Below are positions 10,713-53,399 of a stretch of 64,000 nucleotides of DNA, in pieces (within the stretch, counting starts at the first letter, position 1; every line of letters starts with the position of its first letter). Source of the stretch: Verrucomicrobiota bacterium (GTDB lineage Bacteria > Verrucomicrobiota > Verrucomicrobiia > Chthoniobacterales > UBA10450); NCBI GenBank assembly GCA_003219175.1, contig QHPU01000044.1, positions 62,001 to 126,000 of the forward strand, written 5' to 3'. A program made the translations under genes and the position numbers. The notes below the pieces were generated by a model. The model was not told the origin of the DNA and did no database searches. It was given only the letters and a program-made list of their open reading frames with translations.

Positions 10713-13556
10713 TCAGGCGCTCTGCCCGCGATTTTGTTCAGCGGCCAGTTGCTGCGCGTAAGCAAGGGTATCGATATTCTCGATCGTCTTATCGCGGCGA
10801 ATGGCTTTGATGCGCGGGAAACGCAGGGCGAGGCCGCTGGTATGGCGCGTACTCGGTTGGATGGAATTGAAAGCAACTTCCAAAACAATGTCCGGCTTCA
10901 CTTTGCGATACCGGCCGCGATCAACCAGCGTGTTTTGTGTGAAATGCTCGGTTAGCTCCGCGATCTCAGCGTCAGTCAGTCCGCTATAGGCTTTGCCGAT
11001 GGGTAACAGTTCGCCGCTGTTTTCATCGCGCACGGCAAAGGTGTAATCGCTGAGCACATGATTGCGTTTACCGTGGCCAAGTTCCGCGGCCACGACCACC
11101 ACATCAAGCGTTGCCAGCTCTTTTTTGAGCTTGAACCAAAACAACCCGCGCCGTCCCGGCGAATAAAAACTCTCTGGATCCTTGATCATCAAGCCTTCGT
11201 TCAAACGCAGCCGCGCGCGTTTGAATTCAGTCTCGATTTCGTTAGCTGAATGGGCCGCAACTACGGTCGCGACTTGGAATTTTGGCGGGAGCTGGAGGCC
11301 GCGCAGAAGTTCGCGGCGCTCGCGTAACGGTGTTCGTAGAAGCGACCGGCCATCGAAAAATAACAAATCAAAAGCGACGAATATTACCGGCACATCCGCA
11401 GACGCGGCCTCGAACAAATCGAGTCCTTCGTTTTTTCGTCCCAGCCGCTTCTGCAAATCGAAAAAAGTTAGCTTGCGGTCTTCGGAATATGCCATGATCT
11501 CCCCATCCAGAATCACATCCGCCGAAAAGGCTCGCGCCTGTTCCGCCAGTTCCGGGAATTGACCAGTGATGCGTTTGAGATCGCGAGAGTAGATTTCGGC
11601 GCGATCGCTCTTCAAGTGAAGTTGCGCACGAATCCCATCGAACTTGTCTTCGACATAGATTGTCGGCTTTCCTGTAGAGGCTGCTGTCCTCAGCGCCGCT
11701 TCCGATGTAGTGGCCGCCGTCCCCGGTGGCAGGTCTTTCGGTTCTTCCGCTGAGACAGCGGAAGCTACATCAGCAAACCGCTTCCAAATCGCGTCTGCCG
11801 TCGGTTCAGGGGTGGCAAGCATGCACTTAATCGGCCGGAAGAGCCTGAGTTCGGCGCGATCGAGTTCCTGTTTTTTTGCCAGCACCGCGGTGCGGCCGAT
11901 GTCGCCGAGGAGCATGTTCGCTTCTTTCACTTCATCGAGTGGGGCCGCGAAGGCTTTGGTGATGGCCTCCTCGACCAGGCCCTCACGCAATCCGATGCGC
12001 AGATCACCGCTCAGAATCTTGACCACGTACTGACCTTCGCGGGCAGTAAGACGCGCCAAACGATTTTGCAGTGCATCTTTTTTCGCTACCGGTCCGCGCA
12101 GCTTGTGGAGCTGTTCAAAAAATTCATAAGAATCAGTCAAACCGAACGGTTCCGGAGTTGTCCGGCCATCGAGCACTTCGAATGCTGTCTTGCCCGCGTC
12201 ACCATGGCTGGAAGCGATACGACGAAATTCTGCCTCGCCCATCCTCGCGGCGCCGGCGAGCGCACGGTAAATAACCGAGCCGCCGACTTGCAGCGTGCGC
12301 AGATCTGTTTGCGGAAAAGCGTGCCCGGTAAAATAAACAGTGGCGATCGATAGCCGCGCCTCATCCAGTGTTGAAAAATATTTTGCCAATAGACCGACCT
12401 TCTCAAGTTTCGCGGCGGTCGCCGCAATCGCCTGGCCGACATTCGCGAACGCCAGAAATTCGGATGGCGCTGTAGAAGCCGCCGCCCTCGGCGGCACAGA
12501 ATTCCTTTCCGCCGCTGAGACAGCGGCCCCTACAGTTGTAGCTGCCGCCGTCACTGGCGGCAGAGTCGATTCAAGCATTGTCCCCAAGGTCAGCTCCATT
12601 TGGTTCTCCTCGGTCAATGCCCACGCTTCAATCCCACGCGCGCGTAAATCGCCGGCAAACTGCCCGGCGAATCCGTGCAACGTGAAAACCCGTTTTGGCT
12701 TTACCAAATCGACATAACGCAAGAGATCGTCGTAGTCGGCGTGATCAGAGAGCGGGAAAGCCGCATCGACTTGATAACGATAGATTGCGTTCGGTTCCAC
12801 CGCCCAACCGCTGATCATGGCCACGCGTTTGTGGGGGATCTTTTCGAGCATGCGCGAGCGATTCGCGCTTGGCGGACAGATCAAAACTTTTCCGGCGACA
12901 TCGTTTGCTCGGTAGCGAACGTACTCACAAAATTTCTGACCGTATTGTTCGTAGATGCGCGTCATCTGATAGACCGCGCCATGCAGCATTGGTATCAGTT
13001 CGGCTCCGGCCAATGCGCAAAGAATCTCCTGTGCTTTGCCGAGGGAATAGCCGAGCAACACTGGAACTTCGCTATTGTCGATCGCGTCCCGGCAGAAAGC
13101 GACGATCTGGGCAATTACTTCTTCGGTCGGCGGCAAGCGATAACGCGGAAGGCCGTAAGTGGTCTCCATGATCAATGTGTCGGCTGCTGTCCATTCCGCC
13201 GGTTCGGCCGATTGACCGCGACGCAATTTGAAATCGCCGGTGTAAAGCAACGAATCATCTTCCGTCCGCAGAAAGAACTGAGCTGAGCCAAAAATGTGGC
13301 CGGCTGGGAACAATGTGACCTGCATTCCGTGGACGTCGCTTTCCTGACCGAAGGGCAGAAGAATTTCCCTGCGTTTCCCGGGCAGCCGCGCCTGCATCAA
13401 GCGGGCTGTCCGTTCCGAGACAATAATCTGGCGATGCGGCGCGATGTGATCGCTATGCGCGTGAGAAACAAATGCAAAATCCTTGGCCTCCCACGGGTCG
13501 AGCCAGAGATTTTGTCGCGGCAAAAACACGCCGCAGTCGTATCGGACATCGATCAC
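10713..13556 (-). CDS. Fusion: N-terminal MBL-fold (ligase-associated) exonuclease + C-terminal ATP-dependent DNA ligase
   Basis: MBL motifs SHAHSDHIAPH, YTGDFKLRRG, LSDHADYDDLL; ligase KFDGIRAQ (KxDG), DGEIMAY, EGLMIKDP, FWFKLKK in one 947-aa frame. Confidence 0.93.
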   Translation of the reverse strand: MIDVRYDCGVFLPRQNLWLDPWEAKDFAFVSHAHSDHIAPHRQIIVSERTARLMQARLPGKRREILLPFGQESDVHGMQVTLFPAGHIFGSAQFFLRTEDDSLLYTGDFKLRRGQSAEPAEWTAADTLIMETTYGLPRYRLPPTEEVIAQIVAFCRDAIDNSEVPVLLGYSLGKAQEILCALAGAELIPMLHGAVYQMTRIYEQYGQKFCEYVRYRANDVAGKVLICPPSANRSRMLEKIPHKRVAMISGWAVEPNAIYRYQVDAAFPLSDHADYDDLLRYVDLVKPKRVFTLHGFAGQFAGDLRARGIEAWALTEENQMELTLGTMLESTLPPVTAAATTVGAAVSAAERNSVPPRAAASTAPSEFLAFANVGQAIAATAAKLEKVGLLAKYFSTLDEARLSIATVYFTGHAFPQTDLRTLQVGGSVIYRALAGAARMGEAEFRRIASSHGDAGKTAFEVLDGRTTPEPFGLTDSYEFFEQLHKLRGPVAKKDALQNRLARLTAREGQYVVKILSGDLRIGLREGLVEEAITKAFAAPLDEVKEANMLLGDIGRTAVLAKKQELDRAELRLFRPIKCMLATPEPTADAIWKRFADVASAVSAEEPKDLPPGTAATTSEAALRTAASTGKPTIYVEDKFDGIRAQLHLKSDRAEIYSRDLKRITGQFPELAEQARAFSADVILDGEIMAYSEDRKLTFFDLQKRLGRKNEGLDLFEAASADVPVIFVAFDLLFFDGRSLLRTPLRERRELLRGLQLPPKFQVATVVAAHSANEIETEFKRARLRLNEGLMIKDPESFYSPGRRGLFWFKLKKELATLDVVVVAAELGHGKRNHVLSDYTFAVRDENSGELLPIGKAYSGLTDAEIAELTEHFTQNTLVDRGRYRKVKPDIVLEVAFNSIQPSTRHTSGLALRFPRIKAIRRDKTIENIDTLAYAQQLAAEQNRGQSA
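11704..11771. repeat. Double-hairpin palindromic element (GATGTAG...CTACATC), inside ligase CDS
   Basis: Terminal inverted gatgtag/ctacatc with internal GC-rich hairpins; related half-copy immediately upstream 11673-11703. Confidence 0.75.
12471..12565. repeat. Double-hairpin palindromic element (TGTAG...CTACA) plus adjacent half-element, inside ligase CDS
   Basis: tgtagaagccgccgccctcggcggcacagaattcctttccgccgctgagacagcggcccctaca (12471-12534), then ttgtagctgccgccgtcactggcggcag. Confidence 0.8.
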
Positions 13557-23063: not shown

Positions 23064-23680
23064 CACGAAATATAATTCCAAATCTCAATGATCAAAATGG
23101 CGGCTGAGACCAAGACCAGTCCCCAGCAAAGCGAGGTGGGAATGCTTTCGATAACCTGTGGCGCCGCCGCGGGCGCGATTGTTACGGGTGCCGTTGGCCG
23201 AGTAAGTGGAGTCGCTGCCAAAGTAACAAGTGGCTGAGTTTTGGACATTTTCACTGGCCCCGACTTCGGGGGATCGGGCAGGATACTGATACGAGCTGTT
23301 TCCTTGGCCAGCGGGGTTGTCGCTGGCCTAGCGGGCGCGGGGGCGGCCGGGGGTGCCGGAGCGGCTGCCGCGGCTCCCATGGGTCGAGGCACGGGTGTCT
23401 TGGCGGCCGGCGGCGGAGGCGGAGCGAACGTCCGCGGTACCGGCACACCGGCGACCGGTGGTTTAGGCAACGGAACCTGCGACACCGGCGGTCGCGGAAT
23501 TGGGACGGTACCCGGTTTCGGTATGGATGGCGTCGATGTCGGCGCAGGCTCCGACGTCGGTGGCCGCGCGGGCAGGGTGATCCGCACAGTATCATCATCT
23601 TGCGGGGCGACGGCCTCTCCACGACGGGGCGGGAGAGCAATCCGGACAGTTTCTTTTTTTGGTTCGTTGGCTTCGGCCAT
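23063..23680 (-). CDS. Pro-rich protein with C-terminal TM segment
   Basis: Low-complexity PxP body, C-terminal SLCWGLVLVSAAILIIEIWNYIS; stop overlaps trxA start. Confidence 0.55.
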   Translation of the reverse strand: MAEANEPKKETVRIALPPRRGEAVAPQDDDTVRITLPARPPTSEPAPTSTPSIPKPGTVPIPRPPVSQVPLPKPPVAGVPVPRTFAPPPPPAAKTPVPRPMGAAAAAPAPPAAPAPARPATTPLAKETARISILPDPPKSGPVKMSKTQPLVTLAATPLTRPTAPVTIAPAAAPQVIESIPTSLCWGLVLVSAAILIIEIWNYIS

Positions 23681-23836
23681 GGTCACGTTAACGGGTGGAA
23701 AAGTAAGTCTGTCAGAAATCTCGGGATTTGTCACCGTCAATTAACGCTCGAACCAGAAAAAGCGAACCCTCTACGGGTGATAGTTGGTAGTTCTGCAGCT
23801 GGTGACAGCGGCAGCTACACAATCGTTTATGCAGCC

Positions 23837-25363
23837 CTAAGCCAGCAGATCGTAGCCTCGACTGCCGCGAATCCGGCGGTTGGTGAACTCGCCGACTGGC
23901 GCCGGTTCGGAAAGCAAAACGCGCGCGTCAACATCCGGCGCGTCGGCTTCTGTTCGGGCGACGAGGGGTTGATCGACTAACAACTTCAGTTCAGTCCCAA
24001 CCTTAGCAGCCGCAATTTCATGCGCGATTTTCTGCTGCAATGTCATGGCACGACGATGGCGTTCGTTTTTAACCTTCGCCGGAATTTGCCCAGGCATTTT
24101 CGCCGCGCGCGATCCTTCCTCCCGCGAATACTTGAAAATCCCGAGCCGCTCGAACCGCGTTCGGTCTAGAAAATCCAGCAGTGTTTCAAATTCGGCTTCG
24201 GTTTCGGTCGGAAAACCGACAATGAACGTGGTGCGCAATGCCACTCCAGGAATTCCGGCACGCAACTTCGCTATCAAATCTTCGATATGCGCCCGGCTCG
24301 TTTCCCGCCGCATCCGACGAAGCATGGATTCGTCGATGTGCTGCAACGGGATGTCGATATAACGCGCCACATGCCGGCATGCGGCGATGGTTGCGATAAG
24401 CTCGTCGCTCCAGTGCGCCGGATGGGTGTAAAGAAGTCGGATCCAAAAGTTGCCCTCGATTTTTTCGATCTCGCGCAAGAGCCCGGCCAGCGTGAGCCCG
24501 CGGGTGGAATCGACCGGCTGACGCGGCCCAGCTTTTTCCTCCCATAAATCCATTCCGTAGTAGGTAGTGTCCTGGCTGATTAGATTGATTTCGCGTACAC
24601 CCTCTGCCACGAGCGCGCGAATTTCGGTCAGGACTGATTCCGGGGTGCGGCTGCGATGGCGCCCGCGCATTTGGGGGATAACACAGAAACTGCAGGGATG
24701 ATTGCAGCCCTCGGCTATCTTCAAGTAAGCGGAGTGCGGCGGAGTTAAACGAAAGCGCGGCGTGTCGTAATCGGGAATATAGGTGGGACGGGGGGTGACG
24801 AAATTGAGCGCCGGTTGAGTGGGATCAGAATCAACATCCAACCTCCGACGTCCAACGCCTAACGCGCAATTGTCCGCATTGGGCGTTGAGCGGTGTGCGT
24901 TGAGGGTTCGGGGTTGTTGTAAAACTCTCTCCACAATCGTGCCCAATTCTCGCACCTGATCGAGTCCGATGAATGCATCGACCTCCGGCAACTGCTCCTG
25001 CAATTCGTCGGAAAACCGCTGTGACATGCAGCCACTCACAATCAATCTTTGGTTCGCGCGTTTGTGCAGTCCGCGTTGTTCATGTGCTTCCAAAATGGCG
25101 TCGATCGACTCTTCTTTAGCGGAGTCGATAAAGGCGCAGGTATTGATTACGAGCACATCGGCCTCTTCGGCGCTCGAAGTAAGTTGCATGCCGCGCTCGA
25201 GCACACTCCCAAGCATGATTTCAGCGTCGACCAGATTTTTGGCGCAGCCGAGACTGATGATGCCGACTTTAGGGCGGGGTAGCGGCGGCCATGTCGGCCG
25301 CGCGGGTTTTCGTGTTGCCGCCGAGACAGCGGCCGCTACTGAAAAATTTCTGCGATCGCTCAC
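23837..25363 (-). CDS. rimO: Ribosomal protein S12 methylthiotransferase
   Basis: KVGIISLGCAKNLVDAEIMLG; EGCNHPCSFCVIPQMRG radical SAM; ALRTTFIVGFPTETEAEF. Confidence 0.95.
   Translation of the reverse strand: MSDRRNFSVAAAVSAATRKPARPTWPPLPRPKVGIISLGCAKNLVDAEIMLGSVLERGMQLTSSAEEADVLVINTCAFIDSAKEESIDAILEAHEQRGLHKRANQRLIVSGCMSQRFSDELQEQLPEVDAFIGLDQVRELGTIVERVLQQPRTLNAHRSTPNADNCALGVGRRRLDVDSDPTQPALNFVTPRPTYIPDYDTPRFRLTPPHSAYLKIAEGCNHPCSFCVIPQMRGRHRSRTPESVLTEIRALVAEGVREINLISQDTTYYGMDLWEEKAGPRQPVDSTRGLTLAGLLREIEKIEGNFWIRLLYTHPAHWSDELIATIAACRHVARYIDIPLQHIDESMLRRMRRETSRAHIEDLIAKLRAGIPGVALRTTFIVGFPTETEAEFETLLDFLDRTRFERLGIFKYSREEGSRAAKMPGQIPAKVKNERHRRAMTLQQKIAHEIAAAKVGTELKLLVDQPLVARTEADAPDVDARVLLSEPAPVGEFTNRRIRGSRGYDLLA
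25279..25339. repeat. 61-bp double-hairpin element (GTAG...CTAC) encoding the RimO N-terminal extension
   Basis: gtagcggcggccatgtcggccgcgcgggttttcgtgttgccgccgagacagcggccgctac; translates as VAAAVSAATRKPARPTWPPL. Confidence 0.8.
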
Positions 25364-26203: not shown

Positions 26204-28636
26204 CTACACGGCGGCGTCGAGATCGACCAGAATCTCGCGCGGCTTCGCGCCTTCGCCGGGACCTAAAATACCGCGCTGCTCAAGAATATCAACGATGCGC
26301 GCGGCCCTAGTATACCCAAGTCGCAACCGACGCTGCAAAAGGGAAGTTGAAGCGCGTTTCTCCTGACGAATGATCTCGAGACATTTCTCCACCAGTTCTT
26401 CGTCTTCCTCTGTAACATCTTCCTCCGCAGCGGCTCCCGACTGGAGTTTTTCCTGCATTCCGGTGTCGAACGCCGGTGCTCCTTGTCCGGACACGAACTC
26501 TACCAGTTCGCGGATCTCCTCGTCTGTCACCAACACACCTTGGGCGCGGATCATCCGCGAGGTACTTGGCGGCAGATAGAGCATGTCCCCCTGGCCGATC
26601 AACCGGTCGGCGCCATTTTCATCAAGAATCACACGGCTATCGATTTTGCTTGCGACCTGGAAAGCGATCCGGCTCGGAACGTTCGCTTTGATCACCCCGG
26701 TGATGACGTCGGCTCGCGGCGTCTGTGTTGCCAGAACAAGATGAATCCCAGCAGCGCGCGCGATCGCAGCCATCCGCGCGATCGCGTTCTCAACGTCAGC
26801 CGGCGCGGTCTGCATTAAATCCGCCAGTTCGTCGATTATGAGGACGATGTACGGGAGCTTGTCGGGAATGATCAGTTCGTCCTCGCGGGGGACGCGGATT
26901 GCAGCTGACGCCATCTCGACGGCAGAATCATCCTTCCTGCCACCAGAGACGGCGGCAGCTACATCATCTAATTCCCTTTGTCTTTTCTTCGGCGGCCGGG
27001 CATTGAAGCTGGTGATGTTGCGAACCCCTACCCGCGCAAAAATCTTGTAGCGGCGATCGATCTCATCGTTCAACCAGCGCAACGCCAGCAGCACCTTTTT
27101 CGGATCCGTCACCACCGGAAAAGCCAGGTGAGGCAATCTTTCGTAAATCTGCATCTCCACCACCTTGGGGTCGATCATGATGAAGCGCAGTTCTTCGGGG
27201 GTGAACCGAAAGAGAATGCTGGAGATTAGGGCGTTGATGCAAACGCTCTTGCCACTGCCGGTCGTTCCCGCGATGAGCAGGTGTGGCATCTGCGCCAGAT
27301 CGGCAATGATCACGTTACCGTAAACGTCCTTGCCCAGCGCCAGCGGAATTTTGCAGCGCGCCTTGGCTTCTTCCCAATCGGCTGATTGCATCAATTCGCG
27401 CAACGTCACTTTGATCTTGCGCGTGTTTGCGATCTCAATTCCGACAGTATCCTTGCCCGGTATTGGTGCCAGAATGTTTATGCGTTCGGCTCGGGTAGCG
27501 CGTGCCAAATCGCGCTCGAGCGAGACGATTTTGTCCACCCGCACTCCCTTGGCCGGGTAGACTTCATAACGCGTGATCGTCGGTCCTTTGGTGATGTCGC
27601 CAGCGGCAACGGCGATGCCGAATTGCCCGAGGGTTTCAATCAAAACTTCCTGGACTTTTTCGAGTTCGGACAGGTCTGTTCCGCCGCGGCCTTCGGGATC
27701 ATGTTCGTCGAGCAGGTCTATGCTCGGAAGCATGTAATGTTCGGCGTCGAATCTGCGCGCTTCCGTCATCTTGAGTGGCGCTCTCATCTTCGACGGCTGC
27801 AATTCCGCGAGCGACGGTTTCTTCCGCGGTGGCGACGCCACCTCTTCTGGCAACGCGGTGGTGTCAACAACTTTCGGTTTCGGGCGACCAACCAGTTCCT
27901 CTGGCGGCACTACCATTTTCTCGGGAACCGGTGCGCCCTTTTTCTTCAGCTGCTTTTCAATTAGCCGGCGTTGCTTGGCCAGTTCGCGCTCGCTAATCGC
28001 CAACTGACCCTTGATATCGGCGCGGCGCATTTCGCGGCGCAATCGCCACTCGCGAAAACAAACCACGCCATTGCGAATGCCCCAGACCGTTTCGCGGACA
28101 AGATGGATCGGGCGCAATCCCGTCATCAAAATGAGCGCGCTGATATAGATTCCGGCGAGAAGAATCATCGAGCCGACGTCGCCCATCGCGCCGAGCAAGA
28201 TTTTTTTGCCAAAGAAATAGCCGATCGATCCGCCCGGGCCCTGGATGTTTAGTTTCTTCCATTCGAAGAAATAGCGGGTCTGCAGTTGCAATAGACACGC
28301 GCCGGACAGGAGGAACAGGACAATCCAGGGCAGACGTGTCAGTACGCGCAAACGCGGATAGAAAAGTTTGGCGGCGCCGAAGCCGAGCAGGACCGCCGCG
28401 AGAAAATAAGAGGCCGCGCCGATGAGTAAATAGAAAATGCTGGCGAAGATGGCGCCGAATGGACCGATGAAATTTTGTGCCGGGCGGTTCGGCGGCGACA
28501 AATAACTCCACGGCACCCATGAAGGCAGATCACGCGGGCTATAGGAAATCAACGCGAAGAAGAGAAGAGTGCCGGTGAGAAGCAGAATGATGGCGAAGAC
28601 TTCATTCCACGCGCTATTCTTTGCCGAGCGAGCCAC
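26204..28636 (-). CDS. ftsK: DNA translocase FtsK/SpoIIIE
   Basis: N-terminal TM domain; PHLLIAGTTGSGKSVCINALISSIL; LPYIVLIIDELADLM; C-terminal winged-helix gamma domain. Confidence 0.95.
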   Translation of the reverse strand: MARSAKNSAWNEVFAIILLLTGTLLFFALISYSPRDLPSWVPWSYLSPPNRPAQNFIGPFGAIFASIFYLLIGAASYFLAAVLLGFGAAKLFYPRLRVLTRLPWIVLFLLSGACLLQLQTRYFFEWKKLNIQGPGGSIGYFFGKKILLGAMGDVGSMILLAGIYISALILMTGLRPIHLVRETVWGIRNGVVCFREWRLRREMRRADIKGQLAISERELAKQRRLIEKQLKKKGAPVPEKMVVPPEELVGRPKPKVVDTTALPEEVASPPRKKPSLAELQPSKMRAPLKMTEARRFDAEHYMLPSIDLLDEHDPEGRGGTDLSELEKVQEVLIETLGQFGIAVAAGDITKGPTITRYEVYPAKGVRVDKIVSLERDLARATRAERINILAPIPGKDTVGIEIANTRKIKVTLRELMQSADWEEAKARCKIPLALGKDVYGNVIIADLAQMPHLLIAGTTGSGKSVCINALISSILFRFTPEELRFIMIDPKVVEMQIYERLPHLAFPVVTDPKKVLLALRWLNDEIDRRYKIFARVGVRNITSFNARPPKKRQRELDDVAAAVSGGRKDDSAVEMASAAIRVPREDELIIPDKLPYIVLIIDELADLMQTAPADVENAIARMAAIARAAGIHLVLATQTPRADVITGVIKANVPSRIAFQVASKIDSRVILDENGADRLIGQGDMLYLPPSTSRMIRAQGVLVTDEEIRELVEFVSGQGAPAFDTGMQEKLQSGAAAEEDVTEEDEELVEKCLEIIRQEKRASTSLLQRRLRLGYTRAARIVDILEQRGILGPGEGAKPREILVDLDAAV

Positions 28637-38394: not shown

Positions 38395-38520
38395 GCTTGG
38401 GGGAGCTGGATAAGCCCGTTGTCTCAGTGCATAATCCAAACATCCTGCCGCCGGAGACGGCGGCCGCTACAGCCGGAGCGAGCGGTTGGCATTGCGCCGA
38501 GCCTGTGGTACACAAATCAC

Positions 38521-40305: not shown

Positions 40306-40315
40306 CGCTCTGCTT

Positions 40316-40379
40316 GTAGCTGCCGCCGTCACTTGTGGCAGAATTTCTAATCCTGCCGCTGAGGACAGCGGCAGCTACA
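40316..40379. repeat. 64-bp double-hairpin element (TGTAGCTGCCGC...GCGGCAGCTACA) in dapA-dapB spacer
   Basis: tgtagctgccgccgtcacttgtggcagaatttctaatcctgccgctgaggacagcggcagctaca. Confidence 0.9.
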
Positions 40380-53325: not shown

Positions 53326-53399
53326 TTTTTGTAGGGCCAGCGCATCGCTTGCCGGGCATTCAGATTGGCAAGGGGCGCGCTTGCCCTACAATGCCCCGT

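Follow-up and report, generated by a model that had tools for sequence, protein, structure and literature searches.

How did several palindromes come to lie, in frame, inside the gene for one DNA ligase? The host is a soil bacterium of an uncultured Chthoniobacterales lineage, and the window, the whole stretch of DNA analysed, comprises 64,000 nt of one contig of its assembly (C154, positions 62001-126000). The gene and its palindromes are as follows.

10713-13556, minus strand: ORF of 947 aa, MBL-fold/ATP-dependent DNA ligase fusion (Pfam DNA_ligase_A_N/M/C and RMMBL), host of the elements
11673-11700, plus strand: degenerate single GTAG REP beside the linker-2 REPIN
11706-11769, no strand: REPIN (inverted GTAG-REP doublet), 64 nt, in linker 2, 5' of the KFDG adenylation motif; encodes DVASAVSAEEPKDLPPGTAATT
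12471-12534, no strand: REPIN, 64 nt, in linker 1, between the MBL and ligase parts; encodes VGAAVSAAERNSVPPRAAAST
12537-12564, plus strand: single REP, perfect family match, beside the linker-1 REPIN; encodes LPPVTAAAT

A sequence-only reading of the window had described TGTAG...CTACA doublets within one open frame that encode Ala/Ser/Pro-rich segments, and the translation agrees: the frame remains open through both doublets and all elements are read through. The first doublet had been given as 11704-11771, which adds symmetric GA/TC flanks. The two extra half-copies noted beside the doublets are both single REPs, of which the one at 12537 is a perfect family match, whereas the half beginning at 11673 is degenerate, with 3 mismatches of 16 (by eye). 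Pfam domain limits bear out the placement claimed for the inserts, at the MBL-ligase junction and before the KxDG motif. For linker 1, MBL/RMMBL ends at residue 295 and DNA_ligase_A_N begins at 367; for linker 2, DNA_ligase_A_N ends at 532, the adenylation domain begins at 627 and KFDG lies at about 638. The structure predicted for the ligase is of poor overall quality (mean pLDDT 62.7, pTM 0.40), and both inserts lie within stretches modelled with low confidence (313-361 and 603-627), a placement that may hint at their linker nature.

The ligase elements are REPINs of a GTAG-tagged REP family. Each family half reads TGTAGCTGCCGCYGTC-loop-GGCGGCAG, a short palindrome present in many copies per genome with the GTAG tag outside a 7-9 bp stem, at one end. 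Two inverted halves and a short spacer fold as one hairpin, with consensus folds of -52 and -59 kcal/mol. The family, which had been called unidentified, can thus be assigned. It had also been likened to the Rickettsia palindromic elements, and the resemblance, as cited in the Di Nocera et al. 2013 survey (PMC3733652), is that of a palindrome in frame in many unrelated protein genes. That survey classes RPE-4 and RPE-6 as CGTC repeats without a transposase link; the family here, in contrast, is GTAG-tagged and linked to RAYT transposases, which sets it apart from RPE.

The elements are repeated well beyond the ligase, as had been claimed for the window and proposed as a check for the genome. 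With ≤2 mismatches allowed, the window contains eleven family halves, whereas shuffled sequences average 0.05, and a looser pattern gave 55 matches where 16 were expected. In the whole assembly (3.24 Mb, 166 contigs) there are 29 half-copies at ≤1 mismatch, with none for the reversed-pattern control. The family is also present in nine of ten genus mates, with 5-49 halves each, the exception being G007 with zero family halves, and a more distant genus, represented by G014, holds 45 halves. Doublets make up 62 of the 119 loci examined, most commonly 64-67 nt in length. The shuffles and reversed-pattern controls rule out chance palindromes arising from base composition, and an Rfam search of the window for known structured RNAs matched only a tRNA. 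It should be borne in mind that MAG assemblies can misjoin repeats. Several further GTAG REPIN families occur in the same genome. The contig that contains the window holds about 10 of the family's 22 genomic loci while making up 5% of the assembly (binomial P ~3e-8), an excess that could possibly reflect misbinning from a REP-richer relative.

Outside the ligase gene, the following copies lie in the window.

23792-23819, minus strand: single REP of the same family; overlapping ORF without a Pfam match
25278-25340, no strand: divergent GTAG doublet at the 5' end of a rimO-like gene; coding status unsure
26900-26963, no strand: REPIN of the same family, in frame in ftsK (26207-28636, minus strand), in a variable loop that precedes the IIDEL (Walker B) segment; encoded peptide DVAAAVSGGRKDDSAVEMASAA
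33378-33405, plus strand: single REP, intergenic
38444-38471, minus strand: single REP at the 5' end of dapF, whose true start probably lies downstream of it
40315-40379, no strand: REPIN, 65 nt, at the 5' end of dapB, whose true start probably lies downstream of it

A TGTAG...CTACA palindrome of a different family (TGTAGGGCCAGCGC...) was seen at 53330-53390.

The ligase is one of many host genes, and about a third of the examined doublets sit in frame within genes. Copies inside Pfam-supported ORFs were found in FtsK, aconitase, fumarylacetoacetase (FAA hydrolase), tRNA-guanine transglycosylase (TGT), GluRS-like proteins, two groups of AMP-binding enzymes, PheT and a 2-oxoacid dehydrogenase fusion; these genic counts were taken from the stretches of genome around copies. 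One frame, xxT GTA GCT GCC GCC GTC, coding VAAAV...TAAAT, is used in 33 of 38 ORF-internal placements, and a length of 1 mod 3, by which both arms stay in the readable frame, is found in 19 of 21 genic doublets versus 12 of 41 others (Fisher P 7e-6); since many genic copies are common by descent, neither the 38 placements nor the 21 doublets are independent. Counted by gene family, the frame preference is about 11 of 12 (P ~0.008). Phase 1 of the element runs into a TAG stop, and the two usable frames are about equally open in the other doublets (24-30 of 41). Phase 0 is open in ~60% of these and phase 2 in ~70%, so the bias is not accounted for by openness alone. PheT, in which one arm is read in the other frame, was retained as a genuine exception. 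Other apparent exceptions were dropped: a SAICAR synthetase match (L175) because the copy looks upstream of the real start, and the ORFs at L159, L140:2-625 and window 23108-23977 because they lack a Pfam match.

The clearest single insertion, judged from aligned orthologs, is that in aconitase, where this species alone has the full 22-aa insert, short Ala-rich remnants remain in several genus mates, and the outgroups compared have neither insert nor remnant. The FtsK copy lies in a loop that varies among orthologs anyway. In another genome (G008:C345 15819-18145, L118), ftsK is split over two frames near a family REP, as a real break or an assembly error.

To follow the ligase inserts, we aligned 64 ligase sequences, with orthologs from Chthoniobacterales/Candidatus Udaeobacter MAGs. 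Both linkers vary freely in length and sequence, with medians of ~30 and 18 aa and maxima of 50 and 45 aa. The palindromes are concentrated in them: of the TGTAG...CTACA pairs, 22 fall within the 9.4 kb of linker and one in the remaining 163 kb of the ligases, and 72 of 74 tags inside the linkers are in a single phase. They stem from several REP families (for example those of L003, L006/L008/L054, L040, L061 and L044/L045), while linkers exist at both places in orthologs without the window's family. REPs thus lengthened and rewrote the linkers but did not create them; the linkers came first and were then repeatedly colonised. The sequence-only reading had proposed this ortholog comparison, and its idea of a mobile repeat donating linker-like segments is supported, with the correction that the linkers pre-existed. 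The family is multi-copy, has matching RAYTs, and is present in the genus and missing at these sites from outgroups. Linker 1 of L012, L056, L020, L026 and L042, from other genera, holds palindromes without the TGTAG tag, with ends such as GGGAGCGCGGGC...GCCCGCGCTCC; these appear to be further element families at the same site.

A search for an associated transposase had also been proposed. Y1_Tnp genes were found in 36 of 39 relatives, and in four genomes a RAYT is flanked by REPs of this very family, the arrangement that defines a REPtron: on both sides in G006 (C74), G004 (C238) and G014 (C170), and on the side present in G062 (C43). In the assembly that contains the window, which is 90% complete, we found no family-flanked RAYT; the RAYTs examined there have other REP families at their sides or none. 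The four family-flanked genes encode Pfam Y1_Tnp proteins and form one well-supported clade; the G014 protein matches the E. coli TnpA-REP structure (PDB 4ER8) at 4.8e-10. The HUH motif and the tyrosine are kept (H57, H59 and Y119/Y125, in invariant or near-invariant columns), and a short segment is missing from the G062 copy. Since no matching RAYT was found in the own assembly, mobilisation there by a family-flanked RAYT is a probable event projected from sister species.

We therefore favour, with a probability of roughly 0.92, the explanation that the elements are non-autonomous REPINs of a GTAG-tagged REP, moved in trans by a RAYT, and that genic copies persist in linkers as Ala-rich segments. 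A TnpA-REP-type (HUH/Y1) RAYT, encoded by same-REP-flanked genes of the bacterial family, would move the REPINs, and most insertions in genes would be lost. Survivors would mainly be those that entered a flexible linker or loop already present, in the readable frame T/GTA/GCT (VAAAV...TAAAT) and at an in-frame length, and they would persist as alanine-rich linkers while decaying. The encoded linkers are then probably tolerated rather than useful. A quite unlikely alternative is that the inserted peptides were domesticated, selected for improving their host proteins, so that in-frame position would mark a benefit and not mere tolerance. The linker-2 insert is indeed kept in several genus mates whose ligases are 84-85% identical, and both ligase linkers were colonised repeatedly. 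However, ortholog linkers vary freely in length and sequence, genus mates retain mere remnants of the aconitase insert, and tolerance alone yields a frame bias.

Two other explanations concern the origin of the palindromes. That they are a by-product of codon composition in ordinary low-complexity Ala/Ser/Pro linkers of a GC-rich gene can be drawn from the many orthologs with such linkers and no palindromes, but it is refuted by the same DNA forming long hairpins outside genes and flanking transposases, and by the contrasts given above (29 halves versus none in the control; 22 tag pairs versus one); its probability is negligible. A spread that relies chiefly on gene conversion or template switching among hairpins, with no transposase acting now, would fit the failure to find a matching RAYT in the own assembly and the gathering of about half of the own-genome loci on one contig. 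It would also fit a paired change on both stem sides of the window's linker-2 arm, a single case in five sequences from which we claim no selection on the hairpin. This explanation is nevertheless unlikely in the face of intact-looking, family-flanked RAYTs in sister species and another genus.

Several known systems come close to the ligase elements. GTAG REPs inside genes, a verrucomicrobial DNA ligase among them, are already on record: the part of the survey available to us (PMC3733652) records them in Opitutus terrae, in genes that include a DNA ligase and uvrA, and suggests flexible linkers as tolerated sites. The REPs described there share with ours the GTAG outside the stem, a 7-9 bp stem, inverted dimers and in-frame genic copies encoding 20-30 aa, a likeness at the level of description; the host here differs, being an uncultured Chthoniobacterales lineage. 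Frame and length bias, recurrent colonisation of orthologs and a REP within the RAYT frame, all seen here, are not reported in that part of the survey. Our doublets resemble the REPINs of Bertels and Rainey 2011 (PMC3116915) in being inverted REPs with a spacer that form one long hairpin and in their link to a RAYT, but those were studied in extragenic space, whereas about a third of ours are in frame in genes. A literature search for REPs in Udaeobacter found none. As far as the searched literature goes, what is new here is the filter of frame and length, the recurrent entry of several families into the linkers of one protein, and a REP inside its own RAYT. The family, with orthologs that lack the element, offers a clean case of a mobile palindrome repeatedly adding protein linkers to essential enzymes at the same places, with the survival of genic REPINs filtered by reading frame and length, and the matching of one REP family with candidate transposases is directly testable.

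The family-flanked RAYTs carry the element themselves. In G006, G004, G014 and G062, a REP or REP doublet lies in frame at one site (LKRV/VAAAVSGGR.../WQRGFFDH), behind the helix that follows the HUH strand and ahead of the next strand, and a G043 RAYT has a short remnant of an internal REP. In the AlphaFold model of the G014 protein (mean pLDDT 90.7), the insert lengthens the helix and adds a loop of lower confidence (~58). Known REPtrons and TnpA-REP (PMC8266576; 4ER8) likewise keep the HUH and tyrosine residues and have REPs flanking the gene on both sides; the difference here is that a REP or doublet is part of the gene's reading frame, in the loop that joins the helix to the WQxxFFDH strand. 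A second RAYT lineage is paired with REP family F4 (TGTAGCCGCGGTCGCTGGCCGCGGC and close variants), and its own REP occupies this same loop in the window's own genome (C90, L077), G002 (C183, L126) and G005 (C189, L134). The tree separates this lineage from that of the window's family (F1) by well-supported branches holding many RAYTs without an internal REP, which makes two gains the simpler reading.

We offer as a tentative and rather doubtful proposal that, in at least two RAYT lineages (families F1 and F4), REPs insert in frame in one and the same variable loop of the RAYT gene they belong to, which would make the substrate of the transposase part of its own coding sequence. One possible role is self-regulation, with the RAYT acting on its own gene's ssDNA or mRNA; another is that selection on the protein would preserve the REP, and the length and frame of the REP may be tuned for readability. 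In the REP/RAYT literature searched we found no report of a REP inside its own RAYT gene; subscription journals were mostly outside our reach, which leaves absence unproven. Such a REP is a testable clue to the persistence of REP systems. Most of the RAYTs examined in this bacterial family (L121-L149 and L221-L250) have flanks with their own GTAG REP variant, and these paired REP/RAYT families provide a large set for recognition studies.
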